From: Desulfurococcus mucosus DSM 2162
GTDB taxonomy: Archaea; Thermoproteota; Thermoprotei_A; Sulfolobales; Desulfurococcaceae
Direction of reading: 5' to 3'
DNA: 64,000 nucleotides
NCBI RefSeq assembly: GCF_000186365.1
Contig: NC_014961.1
Span: 124,001 to 188,000, forward strand
Shown here: in pieces, positions 13,425-50,167 of the stretch
How positions within the stretch are numbered: position 1 is the stretch's first letter
How the letters are laid out: each line of letters starts with the position of its first letter
Translations under genes and position numbers: made by a program
The notes under the pieces: generated by a model
Seen by the model: the letters and a program-made list of their open reading frames with translations, nothing else
What the model was told of the DNA's origin: nothing
Databases searched by the model: none

Positions 13425-13694
13425 ATGGGACGTAGAAGAGGGGAGCTGGAGAACTGGCTCCGGAGGATCGTCTTCGGTGGACGTAGAAGCGACTACACGG
13501 TGTACGTGAGGTTCCGCACGGAGAACGGGGAGGTGTTGAAGCCTATCCCCGGGAGTCTAATAGAGGACTTCAGGGGAGGATACATATACACGCGTGACGA
13601 GGTAATACCACTTCACAGGGTTGAAGAGATCAGGGATTCACATGACACATTGGTTTACAGGAGGAGTGATGCAGGGAAAAAACACAGCCTCTAG
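13425..13694 (+). CDS. UPF0248/DUF504 family protein
   Basis: 89 aa, matching the small archaeal DUF504 (UPF0248) family: GRRRGELENWLRRIVFGG, YTVYVRFRTENGE, EDFRGGYIYTRDEVIPLHRVEEIRD. The family has been linked to RNA repair/ligation contexts by gene neighbourhood, but no activity is established here. ATG 13425 is taken over the upstream GTG (13416) because the family begins near MGRRR. Its stop codon overlaps the convergent glutamate dehydrogenase stop through a shared CTAG. Confidence 0.75.
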   Translation: MGRRRGELENWLRRIVFGGRRSDYTVYVRFRTENGEVLKPIPGSLIEDFRGGYIYTRDEVIPLHRVEEIRDSHDTLVYRRSDAGKKHSL

Positions 13695-14971
13695 ATCCAG
13701 CCCCTTAGCTTCATGGCTTTAACAACGCGGTCTACTGCGATGGCGTAGGCAGCAGTCCTCATCGGGTGGGTGGAGAATCTCTTCCTCCAGTCATTGAAGA
13801 CTCTCTCAAAGTTCACGCTCATCATCTTGTCGAGCCTTGATAACGCCTCCTCGTCTGTGAGCCAGCAGCCCATCCTGTTGTGGCTCCACTCGATCCAGCT
13901 CATTGTTACTCCGCCAGAGTTCGCGAGTATATCGGGGACTATGATTACTCCCTTCTCATGCAGTATCTTCTCGGCTTCAGGGGTGGTTGGACCGTTGGCT
14001 CCCTCCGAGATAACCTTGGCTTTTATCTTGTTCACATTTTCCTTGGTTATGACGTCCTGTGTAGCGGCTGGCACAAGTATGTCCACTGGTAGCTCGAGTA
14101 GCTCCATGTGGTTTGCTGAAACCTTTACATCTCCCTTCTTGTAGTTTGTCACCTTGCCAGTGGTCTCCTTAACCCTGATGGCTTCCTCGACGTCCAGTCC
14201 TTTGGGATCATATATGTATCCGCTGCTATCGCTCACAGCCACAACCCTGGCGCCCCACTCAGCGAGATATTTAGCGGCGTACATGCCAACGTTTCCGAAT
14301 CCATGGACTGCAACCGTCTTACCCTCTAGTCCACCTATCCACTTCTTTGCAGCTTCTCTCGCCGTGAGGGCTACACCATACCCTGTGGAGACGACTCTAG
14401 CGTAGAGACCTCCGAGTTCAACAGGCTTAGCTGTGACAACCCCCCACGCCTGGTATCCAACAATCTTACTGTACTCGTCGAAGTACCAGGCCATGGTCTG
14501 TGGATTGGTGTAGACGTCGGGGGCAGGTATGTCTACGTCTGGGCCCACATCCTTGGCTATGCCGGCGAAGAACTTCCTGCTCAACTCCTCTAGCTCCCTC
14601 TGGCTGAGAGCCTTGGGGTTGACTCTGACTCCTCCCTTACCGCCGCCGTATGGTATCCCGGCCAGCGAGGTCTTCCAGGTCATCCACATGGATAACGCGA
14701 CTACCTCACCGGGTGTTACGTCTTCACCATACCTTACTCCACCCTTGTAGGGTCCTAGTGCACTGTTGTGCTGGCTTCTCCACCCTAGGTAGGTCTCTAG
14801 CTTGCCATTGTCCCTCCTAATGGTTATCTTTACTTGGACAAGCTTCTCTGGGTGCCTGAGCACTTCAACGACTTCGTCGGGGAGTCCCAGGAGTGATGCT
14901 GCCTCACGCAACTGTTTCACAGCCATCTGGTATACGGGGTCGTTCTCGTAGAGTGATGCATATTCATGCAT
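13691..14971 (-). CDS. gdhA: Glutamate dehydrogenase
   Basis: Hexameric NAD(P)-dependent glutamate dehydrogenase, 426 aa: glutamate to 2-oxoglutarate + ammonium, linking amino-acid catabolism and nitrogen assimilation. Seen: GWRSQHNSALGPYKGGVRYG (substrate lysine in PYKGG), SLAGIPYGGGKGGVRVNPK (catalytic Lys region), DIPAPDVYTNPQTMAW, Rossmann GFGNVGMYAAKYLAEWGARVVAVSDSSG, and SEGANGPTTPEAEKILHEKGVIIVPDILANSGG. Asp/Ser after the second strand (VSDSSG) leaves NAD versus NADP open. The TATA box at 14990-14997 is only ~23 bp before the ATG, so the mRNA is probably leaderless. Confidence 0.95.
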   Translation of the reverse strand: MHEYASLYENDPVYQMAVKQLREAASLLGLPDEVVEVLRHPEKLVQVKITIRRDNGKLETYLGWRSQHNSALGPYKGGVRYGEDVTPGEVVALSMWMTWKTSLAGIPYGGGKGGVRVNPKALSQRELEELSRKFFAGIAKDVGPDVDIPAPDVYTNPQTMAWYFDEYSKIVGYQAWGVVTAKPVELGGLYARVVSTGYGVALTAREAAKKWIGGLEGKTVAVHGFGNVGMYAAKYLAEWGARVVAVSDSSGYIYDPKGLDVEEAIRVKETTGKVTNYKKGDVKVSANHMELLELPVDILVPAATQDVITKENVNKIKAKVISEGANGPTTPEAEKILHEKGVIIVPDILANSGGVTMSWIEWSHNRMGCWLTDEEALSRLDKMMSVNFERVFNDWRKRFSTHPMRTAAYAIAVDRVVKAMKLRGWI

Positions 14972-19866: not shown

Positions 19867-20274
19867 ATGTATCTACTTAGGGTTCGCTGCGGCATCATCA
19901 GGGTGCATGGAATGATAAGTGATTTAGCCGAGTTTCTCAGGCGACACGGCTTCAAGGTTATCGCATACAGGGATGCTTTAAGGGTTCCCGACGAGGAGTT
20001 ACCCATATATCTCGAGGTAAAGCTCGACGCGGGAAAAATCTATACTGCGATAGGTTTCACCGAAGAGCTTAGGGAAATCCTCGAGGAGAAGGCTTCGGGT
20101 GGTGAGAGTATCGAGGACATAGTGGAGGACGCTTTAAGCCGTTTAAACACATGTGCCCTCCTAGTCAAGAAGTGGGCTGATGAAAGAAGGCTTGTGACGA
20201 TATTCAGGCTTAGAGAGGGGAGCGTTGAGCTCATGGATCTCCTGGAGGAGTTAAGGGAGGAAATGGAGGGGTAA
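19867..20274 (+). CDS. Hypothetical protein upstream of phosphohexomutase
   Basis: 135 aa, not recognised: LAEFLRRHGFKVIAYRDALRVPDEELPIYLEVKLDAGKIYTAIGF, then an acidic helical segment (LREILEEKASGGESIEDIVEDALSRLN) and ELMDLLEELREEMEG. No transmembrane or metal motif. ATG 19867 gives the longest form; an internal ATG at 19912 with GGTG upstream (MISDLAEF) is an alternative because the available TATA tract is very close to 19867. Its TAA shares one base with the next gene's ATG, so both are probably translated together. Confidence 0.55.
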   Translation: MYLLRVRCGIIRVHGMISDLAEFLRRHGFKVIAYRDALRVPDEELPIYLEVKLDAGKIYTAIGFTEELREILEEKASGGESIEDIVEDALSRLNTCALLVKKWADERRLVTIFRLREGSVELMDLLEELREEMEG

Positions 20275-21644
20275 TGGAGTTGGGCAGGCTCTTTGGAACA
20301 GATGGTGTAAGAGGCGTAGTAAACGAGGAACTTAACCCCGAGCTAGTGGTGAGGCTGGGCCTAGCCATAGGCTCCTTCTTCGACAAGGGCTCCAGGATCC
20401 TTGTGGCAATGGATTCCAGGGCGGGCGGCGAGCTCATTAAGAACATTGTGGCAGGAGCATTGATGTCAACAGGCGTCAAGGTGTATGATGCAGGGCTCGC
20501 TCCGACGCCAGCCCTACAGTACGCTGTCAAATCCAACGGCTTCGACGGTGGCGTAATGGTGACGGCAAGCCATAACCCGCCAGAGTACAATGGGATAAAG
20601 GTGATCGGGTCCCACGGGATAGAAGTCGACAGGGATGAGGAGGAAGCCATCGAGGAGTTGTACTGGGAGAACAGGTTCAGGAGGGTTAGCTGGAGGGAGC
20701 TGTCTCACCATGTAGAAAAGTATCCCCTGGTAATCGAAGAATATGTGAAAGCCGTGGTAAGCCATGTTGACAGGGACTTGATCAAGAGCAGGAACTATAG
20801 GTTGCTGGTGGATCCAGCTAACAGCGTGGGCTCGCTGACCACGCCATTGATAGCGAGAGAGCTCGGCGTGAAACCCATTGTCGTTAATGGAACACTGGAT
20901 CCCTTGTTCTCGGGGAGGCTGCCGGAGCCCACCGTGGAGAACCTTGCCGAGACATCTAAGCTTGTAAGGGAGGTAGGCGTTGCATTGGGTGTGGCTCACG
21001 ACGCCGACGCGGATAGAGTCATAATGATCGATGAAAAAGGTGTCGTGCACTGGGGTGATCGCACGGCAGCCCTTCTGGCGAGATACCTTAGGGAGAAAGG
21101 GTTGAAAGGCAGGGTTTACACAGCTGTATCATCCAGTGTAATCGTGGAGGAAGTGCTGAGACCATTGAACATTGATGTGGTCTGGCTCAAGGTCGGCAGT
21201 GTTGACATAGCTCACACTATGAGAAGAAACGGAGACGCCCTATGCGGATTCGAGGAAAACGGCGGCTTCATGTATCCTCCACACCAATATGTTCGCGACG
21301 GTGGGATGACAACTGCGCTCTTCCTGGAAATGCTCGCCACCTACGGTGTACCGGCGTCGCAGTTATTCGAATCATTACCCAAGTATCATACCGTGAAGAA
21401 GAAGTATAAGATGAGCAGGGAGAGCGCTCTCGCAGTCGTCGAGAAGGTAAAGGAGGCATTCAGGAACGAGCGGTTGATAACCATAGACGGCGTTAAAGTG
21501 GTGTCTTCGGACTACTGGCTACTAGTCCGTCCAAGTGGAACCGAGCCGTTGCTTCGCGTAATGATAGAGGCTAAAACAATTGAACGCCTCGACGAGGTGT
21601 CCCAACTAGTGGATTCACTAATCAGTGAGGTGACTGGTAGGTGA
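20274..21644 (+). CDS. glmM: Phosphoglucosamine mutase / phosphohexomutase
   Basis: Alpha-D-phosphohexomutase, 456 aa. Domains and residues: LFGTDGVRGVVNEELNPELV (N-terminal signature), VMVTASHNPPEYNGIKV with the active-site phosphoserine in ASHNP, GVAHDADADRVIMIDEKG (metal-binding DxDxDR), CGFEENGGFMYP (sugar specificity loop) and LLVRPSGTEPLLRVMIEA (phosphate-binding RPSGTEP). GlmM-type fit is suggested by sequence; archaeal enzymes often act on both mannose and glucosamine phosphates. Together with GlmS at 48.3 kb it would feed UDP-GlcNAc synthesis. Its TGA overlaps the Trm112-like ATG. Confidence 0.88.
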   Translation: MELGRLFGTDGVRGVVNEELNPELVVRLGLAIGSFFDKGSRILVAMDSRAGGELIKNIVAGALMSTGVKVYDAGLAPTPALQYAVKSNGFDGGVMVTASHNPPEYNGIKVIGSHGIEVDRDEEEAIEELYWENRFRRVSWRELSHHVEKYPLVIEEYVKAVVSHVDRDLIKSRNYRLLVDPANSVGSLTTPLIARELGVKPIVVNGTLDPLFSGRLPEPTVENLAETSKLVREVGVALGVAHDADADRVIMIDEKGVVHWGDRTAALLARYLREKGLKGRVYTAVSSSVIVEEVLRPLNIDVVWLKVGSVDIAHTMRRNGDALCGFEENGGFMYPPHQYVRDGGMTTALFLEMLATYGVPASQLFESLPKYHTVKKKYKMSRESALAVVEKVKEAFRNERLITIDGVKVVSSDYWLLVRPSGTEPLLRVMIEAKTIERLDEVSQLVDSLISEVTGR

Positions 21645-33836: not shown

Positions 33837-35126
33837 TTAAACCAAGTGCTCTAAGTCCACGTAGTCTGCCACGCTCGGTATGCTACGGTTCCTCCTGGCC
33901 TCCCTGAGCTTTAGCTCGGCATAGTACTCCAGCATGTCGCGTGGGAATAAGGGCTTCAAGTACTCGTGGTCGCTGAGGAGGCTTTCCACGGCTTCCTCGA
34001 GACTCCTAGGGAGCCTGCTCGAGGTGGATGGCTTATCATACATGTTGTAGTCTACGGGGCTTCCTGGATCAGTCTTTTTCCTCAATCCATCTAGCCCTGC
34101 TAGCAGTATCGCTGAAATCCCCAGGTACGGGTTCATCGAGGCGTCAGGGGTTCTAACCTCTATCCTCCCACCGTTGAGGGGCACTCTTACCATGGTGGAG
34201 CGGTTTCCAATACCCCACGATATGTATACGGGTGCCTCGAAGCCCTCTATGAGCCTCCTGAAGCTGTTAACGGATGGATTCGTGAAAGCCGTCAGGCTCC
34301 TAGCATGGTCTAGTATTCCCCCGATGAAGTATCTCCCGGCATCGGTTAGCTCGCCTCCATCAAAGAAGATGTTTCTATCCCCAATCCACATGCTTACATG
34401 TATGTGGAGCCCACTACCGTAATCGTCTGCGAAGGGTTTAGGCATGAAGACCCCGTTGAAGCCATGAGTGTTCAGCACTCTTTTTACCGAGGCTACCGAC
34501 AACAGTATGCTGTCCCCGAGGCCAAGGGGGTCGCGGTGGCTAAGCGATAACTCGTATTGGTTCAGGAACCCGTTCTCCCTGTGGATCTTCGACACGCTTA
34601 TACCATTGTTACCGAGAACCCTGATGACATCTGATAGAGCCTCCTCAACCTCCAGCGGTATCTCTGAGACATAATGGCTCTTCACAACCTGGCCTGCGAC
34701 ACCCCCCTTTGATGCGCTCACAAGCAAGCCCTGTCTTCTTCTACCAAGGTAGAATCCAACTTTCCCGGTGATATAGAACTCCAGCTCGCATCCCGCCCTG
34801 AAGACATAGCCGTTCTCCCATGCTTTCTCCACTGTTTTACCCGCAATGGAACGGGGATCCCATGGGTGGGGTTCACCAGTGTGGGTCACGATTCTCCCCG
34901 TGGTCATGTAGCCTCCATTGAAGCTCGACAAATCCACTATGGTTGAGGACGCTGGCTCCACGAAGAGGTCGCTTCTCTCTATGCGACCGTATCCAGGTAT
35001 GCTGGAGCCATCGATGCCTGCTCTAATTCCTTCAAGGGTCTCTGGGACCCCGTCAACTGCTATGGAGACCTGTCTATGTACGCCGGCTATATCTGTGAAC
35101 AATATGTGTAACACGTTCCCGGTCAT
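33837..35126 (-). CDS. glnA: Glutamine synthetase (class I family)
   Basis: ATP-dependent ligase forming glutamine from glutamate and ammonium, 429 aa. Visible sites: GCELEFYITG (metal Glu), KIHRENGFLNQYELS (equivalent to the HHEVxxGQxE loop), DYGSGLHIHVSMW (metal/ATP His; the usual DNGSG is DYGSG), FRRLIEGFEAPVYISWGIGNRSTMVRVP, and EVRTPDASMNPYLGISAILLAGLDG. These substitutions show a diverged member, so a gamma-glutamyl-polyamine type activity is also possible. It is transcribed divergently from the Lrp gene with 92 bp between. Confidence 0.85.
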   Translation of the reverse strand: MTGNVLHILFTDIAGVHRQVSIAVDGVPETLEGIRAGIDGSSIPGYGRIERSDLFVEPASSTIVDLSSFNGGYMTTGRIVTHTGEPHPWDPRSIAGKTVEKAWENGYVFRAGCELEFYITGKVGFYLGRRRQGLLVSASKGGVAGQVVKSHYVSEIPLEVEEALSDVIRVLGNNGISVSKIHRENGFLNQYELSLSHRDPLGLGDSILLSVASVKRVLNTHGFNGVFMPKPFADDYGSGLHIHVSMWIGDRNIFFDGGELTDAGRYFIGGILDHARSLTAFTNPSVNSFRRLIEGFEAPVYISWGIGNRSTMVRVPLNGGRIEVRTPDASMNPYLGISAILLAGLDGLRKKTDPGSPVDYNMYDKPSTSSRLPRSLEEAVESLLSDHEYLKPLFPRDMLEYYAELKLREARRNRSIPSVADYVDLEHLV

Positions 35127-48286: not shown

Positions 48287-48346
48287 ACGTGTCCACCGCC
48301 TCTACTTAAATAGTGTCTTCCAGTATTATTTAAGACGGTGCACTAC

Positions 48347-50167
48347 ATGGGCGGCATCTTCGGCGTCGTATGCAGCACCAATGTACCCAGGGGGCTCGTT
48401 GTCACAGTGCTTCGCAGGCTCATATACAGAGGGTATGATGGGGCTGGTGCTGTATTCCCGGTCAACGGGGTTCTCGAGGTGAGGAAGGCGCCGGGACACC
48501 TTGACAGCGTTGTTAAACAAGTGGATCTCGAGGACATTCCATCCAACATGGTTTTAGCGCATACAAGGTACGCTAGCCGTGGATGGCCCGTGTACGAGAA
48601 CACCCACCCGTTGCTTGACTGCACCGGTAGGATAGCTGTTGTAGGGGACGGCATAATAGACAATTACGAGGACTACAGGGCTAGGCTTGAGAAGGAGGGA
48701 CACGTGCTGAGGTCGAGGACCGATACAGAGGTTGCAGCCCACCTCCTTGAGAAATACTACAGGATTGAGGGCGACTGGCTTAAAGCGGTTCTCAGGGTTG
48801 GAGCCGAGTTAAAGGGCCTCTACTCCCTTGCATTCATGGTTCTCGGTGTGGATGGCATACTATTCGTGCAGAACGGTCAACCCCTCGTCATAGGCATGGG
48901 TTCACACTGCGTCTTCCTCTCGAGCGATATCCCATCGCTCTACGGGCTTGCTGACACGGCATACATAGTTGATGACGGGGTCGCCGGGCTCATAGGGCTG
49001 GATAGGCAGGTGCTCTACAGGATTTCAACCGGGGAGCAACTAGGGCTCCAAGCCCTCCAGAGTAAGCGTGTCAAATACGGCGTTGAACACGTGGATAAAG
49101 CCGGGTTCCCGCACTACATGCTGAAGGAGATATATGAGATCCCTGAAGCAGTTTACAGGGTTACACTCTCTATCATGGATAAGTACCTGCGGCTGGCATC
49201 CATGATAATTCATGGTGCAAGAGACATATACATAGTTGCGAATGGTTCAAGCCTGCATGCGGGGATGGTTGCAACATACTACTTCAATGAGCTGGCGGGA
49301 ATATCCGTGACACCCGTCTCAGCCGCTGAGTTCCCCTACTCGGTTCTAGAAACCGTTTCCACGGGCTCGGTGATTATAGCGGTGAGCCAGAGCGGTGAAA
49401 CAAGCGATGTGATAAACAGTGTAAAGCAGGCTAAGCAGAGAGGAGCAGTGATAGTCGGTGTAACCAACAATGTGGGCTCAAGGCTCGCATTAGAGTCAAA
49501 CGTGTATCTCCCCATAGGGGCGGGCCCAGAGATCGCTGTACCAGCAACAAAATCCTTCTCCGCCACAGTAGTCGCGATGCTACTGCTCGCAATGTACAGC
49601 GGGATCTACACGGGGAGGCAGAGCTTCAACGAGTATAACTCACTGGTCGGCGAAGTAAGGGAGTCCAGTAAAGAGTTGAAAACAATACTCACCAGGCTGG
49701 ACACCGAGATAGCAACAATATTGGACTCCATGCCATTATTCAACAACACCTATGTCGCTGGAAGCGGCATCACATACCCGATAGCCCTAGAGGGGGCGTT
49801 GAAGCTGAAGGAAGCAGCATTGATACACGCGGAGGGCATGCAGCTCGGTGAACTCAGACACGGCCCCCTCACACTGGTTGGAAGAGGTTTCCCAGTCATA
49901 TTAATCGAGCCCTTCGAGGATTCAGCTAAATCATTATACCTTAAGGTAGCCAGGGAGATAGCGAACAGGGATGCCGTACTACTCGCGATCTCAACTGAAA
50001 GTGGACCCCGTGAGGGCAGGGGAATATACATAGAGGTGCCGGCTAGGAGACACCTCTACCCAGTCATAGTTGCACTACCCCTCCAGTTGCTCGCATACAG
50101 GATCGGGGTGAGGCTGAATAGACCCATTGACCGCCCACCCGGGCTAGCTAAGGCTATAACAACATAG
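48347..50167 (+). CDS. glmS: Glucosamine-fructose-6-phosphate aminotransferase (GlmS) with altered glutaminase site
   Basis: 606 aa: glutaminase domain (1-240) plus two SIS isomerase domains. Isomerase sites look complete: SQSGETSDVINSVKQAK, AGPEIAVPATKSFSA, EGALKLKEAALIHAEGMQLGELRHGPL, and the terminal RPPGLAKAITT with the sugar-binding Lys. The glutaminase is odd: the essential N-terminal nucleophile is missing (MGGIFGVVC instead of MCGIxG), and the oxyanion-hole HNG loop is GDG (residues 100-102). HTR and TDTE are kept. It may use free ammonia, or Cys9 may act instead. ATG 48347 (GGTG six bases upstream) is the family start; a GTG 9 bp earlier would not restore a Cys. Confidence 0.88.
   Translation: MGGIFGVVCSTNVPRGLVVTVLRRLIYRGYDGAGAVFPVNGVLEVRKAPGHLDSVVKQVDLEDIPSNMVLAHTRYASRGWPVYENTHPLLDCTGRIAVVGDGIIDNYEDYRARLEKEGHVLRSRTDTEVAAHLLEKYYRIEGDWLKAVLRVGAELKGLYSLAFMVLGVDGILFVQNGQPLVIGMGSHCVFLSSDIPSLYGLADTAYIVDDGVAGLIGLDRQVLYRISTGEQLGLQALQSKRVKYGVEHVDKAGFPHYMLKEIYEIPEAVYRVTLSIMDKYLRLASMIIHGARDIYIVANGSSLHAGMVATYYFNELAGISVTPVSAAEFPYSVLETVSTGSVIIAVSQSGETSDVINSVKQAKQRGAVIVGVTNNVGSRLALESNVYLPIGAGPEIAVPATKSFSATVVAMLLLAMYSGIYTGRQSFNEYNSLVGEVRESSKELKTILTRLDTEIATILDSMPLFNNTYVAGSGITYPIALEGALKLKEAALIHAEGMQLGELRHGPLTLVGRGFPVILIEPFEDSAKSLYLKVAREIANRDAVLLAISTESGPREGRGIYIEVPARRHLYPVIVALPLQLLAYRIGVRLNRPIDRPPGLAKAITT

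Follow-up and report, generated by a model that had tools for sequence, protein, structure and literature searches.

Among described enzymes, GlmS/GFAT (TIGR01135, E. coli GlmS; PDB 1jxa, 2j6h, 3ooj) has the two-domain architecture, a glutaminase domain followed by an isomerase domain, that is also found in the archaeal protein discussed here. In GlmS structures Arg73, Gly99 and Asp123 anchor the glutamine backbone, and the GlcN-6-P isomerase reaction is reversible. Retention of a dead domain of this kind has a parallel in beta-lactam synthetase, an amidotransferase-family enzyme that lost its Ntn Cys and retained the dead Ntn domain; it belongs, however, to the asparagine-synthetase family and differs in its second domain and in its chemistry. 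The archaeal GlcN-6-P deaminase GlmD and bacterial NagB-II (NF041128, NF046059) use a GlmS-type SIS isomerase for deamination. AgaS, a GalN-6-P deaminase, is homologous to the C-terminal domain of GlmS and has no glutaminase, and a relationship to that domain is described for the archaeal GlcN-6-P deaminase as well (PMC3668189).

A GlmS paralogue with an altered glutaminase site

The window, by which we mean the whole stretch of 64,000 nucleotides of Desulfurococcus mucosus DNA that was analysed, contains the following features of interest.

48347..50167, + strand: glmS2, a full-length GlmS-family paralogue of 606 aa plus stop, with a glutaminase domain that appears inactive (TIGR01135, 471.7 bits against a cut-off of 418)
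48347..49063, + strand: Ntn-type glutaminase domain, about residues 1-239, dead as judged by sequence and under purifying selection (Pfam GATase_6/GATase_7, residues, dN/dS)
48350..48352, + strand: GGC, Gly at the position of the nucleophilic N-terminal Cys1 (numbered as in mature E. coli GlmS)
48566..48583, + strand: RYASRG where GlmS has RWATHG (Arg73 kept, Trp74 to Tyr, Thr76 to Ser, His77 to Arg)
48644..48652, + strand: GDG where GlmS has HNG (oxyanion-hole Asn98 to Asp, Gly99 kept)
48722..48724, + strand: Asp126 (E. coli Asp123, the anchor of the ligand amino group), retained across all homologues read
49094..50164, + strand: isomerase domain of two SIS subdomains with the full GlmS catalytic set (Pfam SIS in two stretches, fold match)

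The gene starts with ATG at 48347, and its product aligns with GlmS (TIGR01135) from end to end. At 471.7 bits it exceeds the equivalog cut-off of 418.05 bits, and it does not reach the cut-offs for GlmD/NagB-II (82.9 of 580 bits for NF041128, 129 of 430 bits for NF046059). Its glutaminase domain is full-length, though apparently dead, whereas GlmD and NagB-II are without any.

An earlier note on this DNA had read a Gly at the nucleophile position and an Asp in the oxyanion hole, next to normal-looking isomerase domains, and indeed all three readings hold. The Gly codon stands where Cys1 belongs. The Asp codon is GAC (48647-48649); the window protein has V-G100-D101-G102-I against V-H-N-G-I in GlmS, so it is the middle residue (101) of GDG that replaces the Asn, and the His before the Asn is changed too. 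The changes at residues 74, 76 and 77 come in addition to the two that the note had named. Arg73, Gly99 and Asp123 are retained, and the isomerase catalytic set is complete, with T302 (Ser here)-S303, SQSGET, K403, E481, K485, E488, H504 and K603. The isomerase part also matches the fold of solved GlmS isomerase domains (TM 0.81-0.89), in a structure prediction with mean pLDDT 85 and pTM 0.62 in which the relative placement of the domains is unreliable. The best structural match is 3ooj, E. coli GlmS engineered to carry C1A, and the natural protein resembles that mutant. Compared with GlmS/GFAT, then, the window protein lacks Cys1, Asn98 and Trp74, the gate of the ammonia channel, and it has the Arg73/Asp123 anchors and the isomerase residues. 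Judged by these residues its glutaminase site is dead, and the protein is a GlmS by sequence, yet apparently not a glutamine-dependent one by its defining chemistry.

Simple explanations for the missing Cys were considered and rejected. No alternative start supplies an N-terminal Cys, since the upstream frame reads CLPVLFKTVHY-MGG and its sole start is GTG at 48338 (MHYMGG). A sequencing error or a quirk of the strain does not agree with the presence of Gly in all 70 homologues from the order, which use all four GGN codons for it. The earlier note had also suggested that Cys9 was recruited for another role. As a substitute nucleophile Cys9 does not qualify, because it is not conserved among homologues: it is Ser in L028, Tyr in L021, and various residues in clade B.

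The Desulfurococcus mucosus genome (1,314,639 bases, one contig) encodes three GATase_6 proteins. One is a canonical GlmS at C1:22289-22948 (-) with VCGIIG, RWATHG and VHNG, and another is a single-domain protein of 269 aa. The window gene is a paralogue of the canonical GlmS, and we name it GlmS2. The canonical copy was absent from the earlier note, whose idea that the window gene is the organism's ammonia-fed route to GlcN-6-P finds no support: with an intact glutaminase encoded elsewhere in the genome, this compound need not come from the window gene.

One may still argue that GlmS2 is an ammonia-dependent GlcN-6-P synthase, which with ample ammonium would give a second route besides the glutamine-dependent GlmS. 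The isomerase is intact, the protein scores as GlmS, the reaction can run either way, and GlmS2 is retained in 23 genomes that have no NagA, the window's among them. Moreover, in G052 and G080 (estimated 97-99% complete) a clade-B GlmS2 is found and a clear canonical GlmS is missing, as would be expected if GlmS2 were synthetic or if the assemblies had gaps. However, canonical GlmS is found in nearly all genomes having GlmS2, and the linkage to and co-occurrence with NagA, as well as the PTS genes of family f35 (both described below), point in the opposite direction. In our opinion such a synthase is rather unlikely.

The earlier note had pointed to a GDH/GS region as a neighbour of the gene. 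By eye, the window does contain a glutamate-dehydrogenase-like ORF (13691-14971, -) and a glutamine-synthetase-like ORF (33837-35126, -), but they lie 13-34 kb away from glmS2. A GlmM-like phosphoglucosamine mutase ORF is also seen by eye at 20274-21644 (+).

Fixation of the altered site and selection on the domain

GlmS2 was searched for in 197 genomes of the order; 77 have it and 120 do not, and 70 homologues were read. The earlier note had proposed an alignment of relatives beforehand, and the result agrees with its reading, as Gly is fixed in 70/70 homologues of the order and residue 98 is acidic in all of them. With 18 additional homologues, drawn mostly from other families in the phylum, the total from Thermoproteota comes to 88. 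All 88 share Gly1, Arg73, Gly99, Asp123 and an isomerase active site that is complete, and at position 98 the residue is always acidic (Asp; Glu in one). In the 70 from the order, position 74 holds Tyr or Phe, and Arg77 is found in clade A, the window gene's own clade. What precedes Gly1 in these 70 is always the start codon (37 ATG, 22 TTG, 11 GTG). For comparison we used 92 Cys-type GlmS, namely that of E. coli, 21 from the order and 70 further ones from bacteria and archaea; Cys1, Trp74 and Asn98 are canonical in every one, including 70/70 of the further set, which was mostly recovered via isomerase-domain motifs (named-organism scan) and hence not chosen for Cys.

In a 70-row tree a single branch with support 100/100 divides dead from live proteins, and GlmS2 proteins all stand apart from every sampled Cys-bearing GlmS. 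The split fits a single loss of glutaminase activity, the tree being unrooted and its polarity taken from the bacteria on the live side.

A more distant GlmS2 group, family f31 (L239-L243, L250), has Ser74, and NagA is not nearby; in L250 genes for HPr and enzyme I lie close to GlmS2. This group may have a different role.

GlmS2 is not a decaying pseudogene. The reading frames are intact, and dN/dS of the glutaminase half is 0.06-0.18 between close relatives where synonymous sites are unsaturated, similar to the 0.08-0.18 of the live paralogue; comparisons inside the window's genus come close to synonymous saturation and give weak ratios. In four genome pairs the conservation of GlmS2 was equal to or higher than that of GlmS1 in most comparisons. 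The dead domain evolves under purifying selection.

Given that Arg73, Gly99 and Asp123 are kept and the nucleophile is removed, the dead domain might serve as a glutamine/glutamate sensor that binds without cleaving and gates a reversible deaminase/synthase by nitrogen status. We offer this tentatively, as something possible rather than probable. The same retained anchors and purifying selection, together with the co-presence of GlmS1, could be taken to mean that GlmS2 regulates GlmS1 or supports it structurally as part of a hetero-oligomer, in which the dead domain would act as the sensor and catalysis by GlmS2 itself would be secondary. This seems to us very improbable. If its part were purely regulatory, GlmS2 would have no need of the isomerase catalytic set that all homologues read keep, and the gene to which GlmS2 is linked is NagA; linkage to GlmS1 was not seen in the compared coordinates.

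Gene neighbourhoods and the direction of the reaction

NagA is the most widely shared linked gene around GlmS2 (21 loci), in 8 genomes of several families, and the adjacent deacetylase is a NagA by TIGR00221, above the cut-off. NagA occurs in 54 of the 77 genomes with GlmS2 and in 12 of the 120 without it (odds ratio 21; Fisher p 1.5e-18, which is overstated, the genomes being related and phylogeny uncorrected); it is absent from 23 of the 77. The two genes lie less than 400 bp apart in 21 genomes: head-to-head in 11, tail-to-tail in 5, and on the same strand with NagA downstream in 3 and upstream in 2. These four varied arrangements argue for a repeated or maintained functional linkage and not for one frozen block. 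The association is seen in relatives of both GlmS2 clades. As a control, the listed coordinates of canonical GlmS and NagA were compared, and none of the canonical GlmS genes has a NagA within 2 kb.

The Thermofilum-like family f35 has nagA and glmS2 0-10 bp apart in 6/6 genomes, with PTS enzyme I nearby and, in several, also HPr and a mannose/sorbose-type IIB. The PTS is generally considered rare in archaea. Among Thermoproteota, L231-L236, L249, L250 and L127 carry PTS genes (enzyme I, HPr, IIA/IIB/IIC) adjoining nagA and glmS2 or a SIS gene. In family f22 a BadF/NagK-like kinase gene adjoins GlmS2. Canonical NagB was found in 0 of the 197 order genomes, by a search that was positive in 7 of 14 control genomes. 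G050, which is without GlmS2, has NagA directly beside a stand-alone GlmS-type isomerase of 324 aa in an ABC-transporter cluster (L124:8660-10722); this isomerase is of the general kind of GlmD/NagB-II and looks like a replacement for GlmS2.

The NagA and PTS neighbours in relatives point to amino-sugar catabolism, the reverse of synthesis. The absence of NagB, the stand-alone isomerase beside NagA in G050 and the known GlmS-derived deaminases make deamination the best reading for the family. Hence, in our opinion, GlmS2 is probably a catabolic amino-sugar-6-phosphate deaminase derived from GlmS, with GlcN-6-P as its probable substrate. Counting against such a deaminase, GlmS2 scores above the synthase cut-off and far below those of GlmD and NagB-II. 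By these cut-offs it stands outside GlmD/NagB-II, though its mode of action is probably theirs. The glutaminase domain that those enzymes lost has been kept in the GlmS2 clade, apparently killed, and preserved.

The events may have been as follows. The glutaminase would have been inactivated once in an ancient GlmS paralogue, with the isomerase kept. NagA would convert GlcNAc-6-P to GlcN-6-P, and GlmS2 would then convert GlcN-6-P to fructose-6-P and ammonia, in place of NagB, which these archaea lack. Loss of the glutaminase would prevent glutamine-driven resynthesis from opposing the breakdown, and the dead domain would stay folded, with the residues that hold an amino-acid ligand, possibly for regulation or assembly. 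We infer in this way the direction of the reaction, GlcN-6-P (not GalN-6-P) as substrate, and the role of the dead domain.

Other arrangements of these genes were also seen. A SIS_2 protein with a length of about 245 aa adjoins NagA in several genomes (L117:9766-10518, L126:8149-8892, L127:10167-10901, L131:10540-11280); it is possibly related to MurQ/NagS-like SIS proteins, and it could share or hold the deaminase role. At L244:285-7769 (G498) GlmS2 is split over two ORFs next to one intact and one broken NagA, with a stand-alone GlmD-type isomerase beside it, which is either decay after replacement or the result of assembly errors. At L136:5916-10209 (G010, an archaeon) GlmS2 and NagA are separated by genes for an anhydro-N-acetylmuramic acid kinase (AnmK), a beta-lactamase-like protein and a SIS protein.

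It can be asked whether GlmS2 acts on another sugar phosphate, either as an AgaS-like GalN-6-P deaminase/isomerase or as a plain sugar-phosphate isomerase. The IIB of the f35 clusters is of mannose/sorbose/GalNAc type, and near-active-site residues are unlike those of GlmS1 in all homologues (A400P; loop 498-503). AgaS, too, is related to the GlmS isomerase domain (PMC3668189). In the aga cluster of E. coli this GlmS-derived SIS protein acts after a NagA-like deacetylase, as we propose for GlmS2; unlike GlmS2, AgaS has no glutaminase domain, and its sugar is GalN-6-P, that of GlmS2 being putative only. However, the deacetylase adjacent to GlmS2 scores as NagA, the kinase beside it in f22 is most like NagK, and N-acetylhexosaminidase-type genes are found near NagA in relatives where GlmS2 is unlinked (a GH84 N-acetylglucosaminidase in L119, a GH20 protein in L134). 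These three observations together do not fix the sugar, and we regard a substrate of another kind as decidedly unlikely. Identity of GlmS2 with ST2245, the GlcN-6-P 4-epimerase of Sulfolobus tokodaii, was considered as well and rejected. If G078 is S. tokodaii, its GlmS1 is found near 2.19 Mb, the place at which we would expect ST2186, and its GlmS2, near 2.55 Mb, is too far off for ST2245.

The window's own copy lacks the partners seen in relatives. An archaeal NagA query gave no match in its genome, matches to the family were sub-threshold (E about 1e-4), and HPr, a BadF-type kinase and a PIG-L deacetylase were not detected there. The genes adjoining glmS2 in the window are not amino-sugar genes. 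A congener, G009, has NagA and PTS genes. Retention of glmS2 without NagA implies either that GlcN-6-P comes from elsewhere or that the enzyme works towards synthesis. We infer that the window's GlmS2 is a deaminase as proposed for the family despite the lack of a detectable NagA, and this is less certain than for the family.

Significance for archaeal amino-sugar metabolism

As far as sequences can tell, many heat-loving archaea carry a second GlmS copy with its glutaminase switched off yet preserved. No description of the GlmS2 family was found in the literature searched, a body of work mostly outside subscription papers.

If GlmS2 is indeed a deaminase, a clade of archaeal proteins now labelled as glutamine-dependent GlcN-6-P synthases would be misannotated in both mechanism and direction (the score by the equivalog model being that of the window gene), and metabolic models of Sulfolobus- and Desulfurococcus-type archaea would be affected. 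The missing deaminase step would be supplied for NagA-bearing Thermoproteota that have no NagB. GlmS2 would further be a natural and ancient counterpart of the C1A mutant with which GlmS has been studied, its dead domain kept by selection. If the domain is a sensor, one half of an enzyme would have become a receptor, and this change would be fixed in a large part of an archaeal phylum. The family is open to direct test in genetically tractable Sulfolobales.
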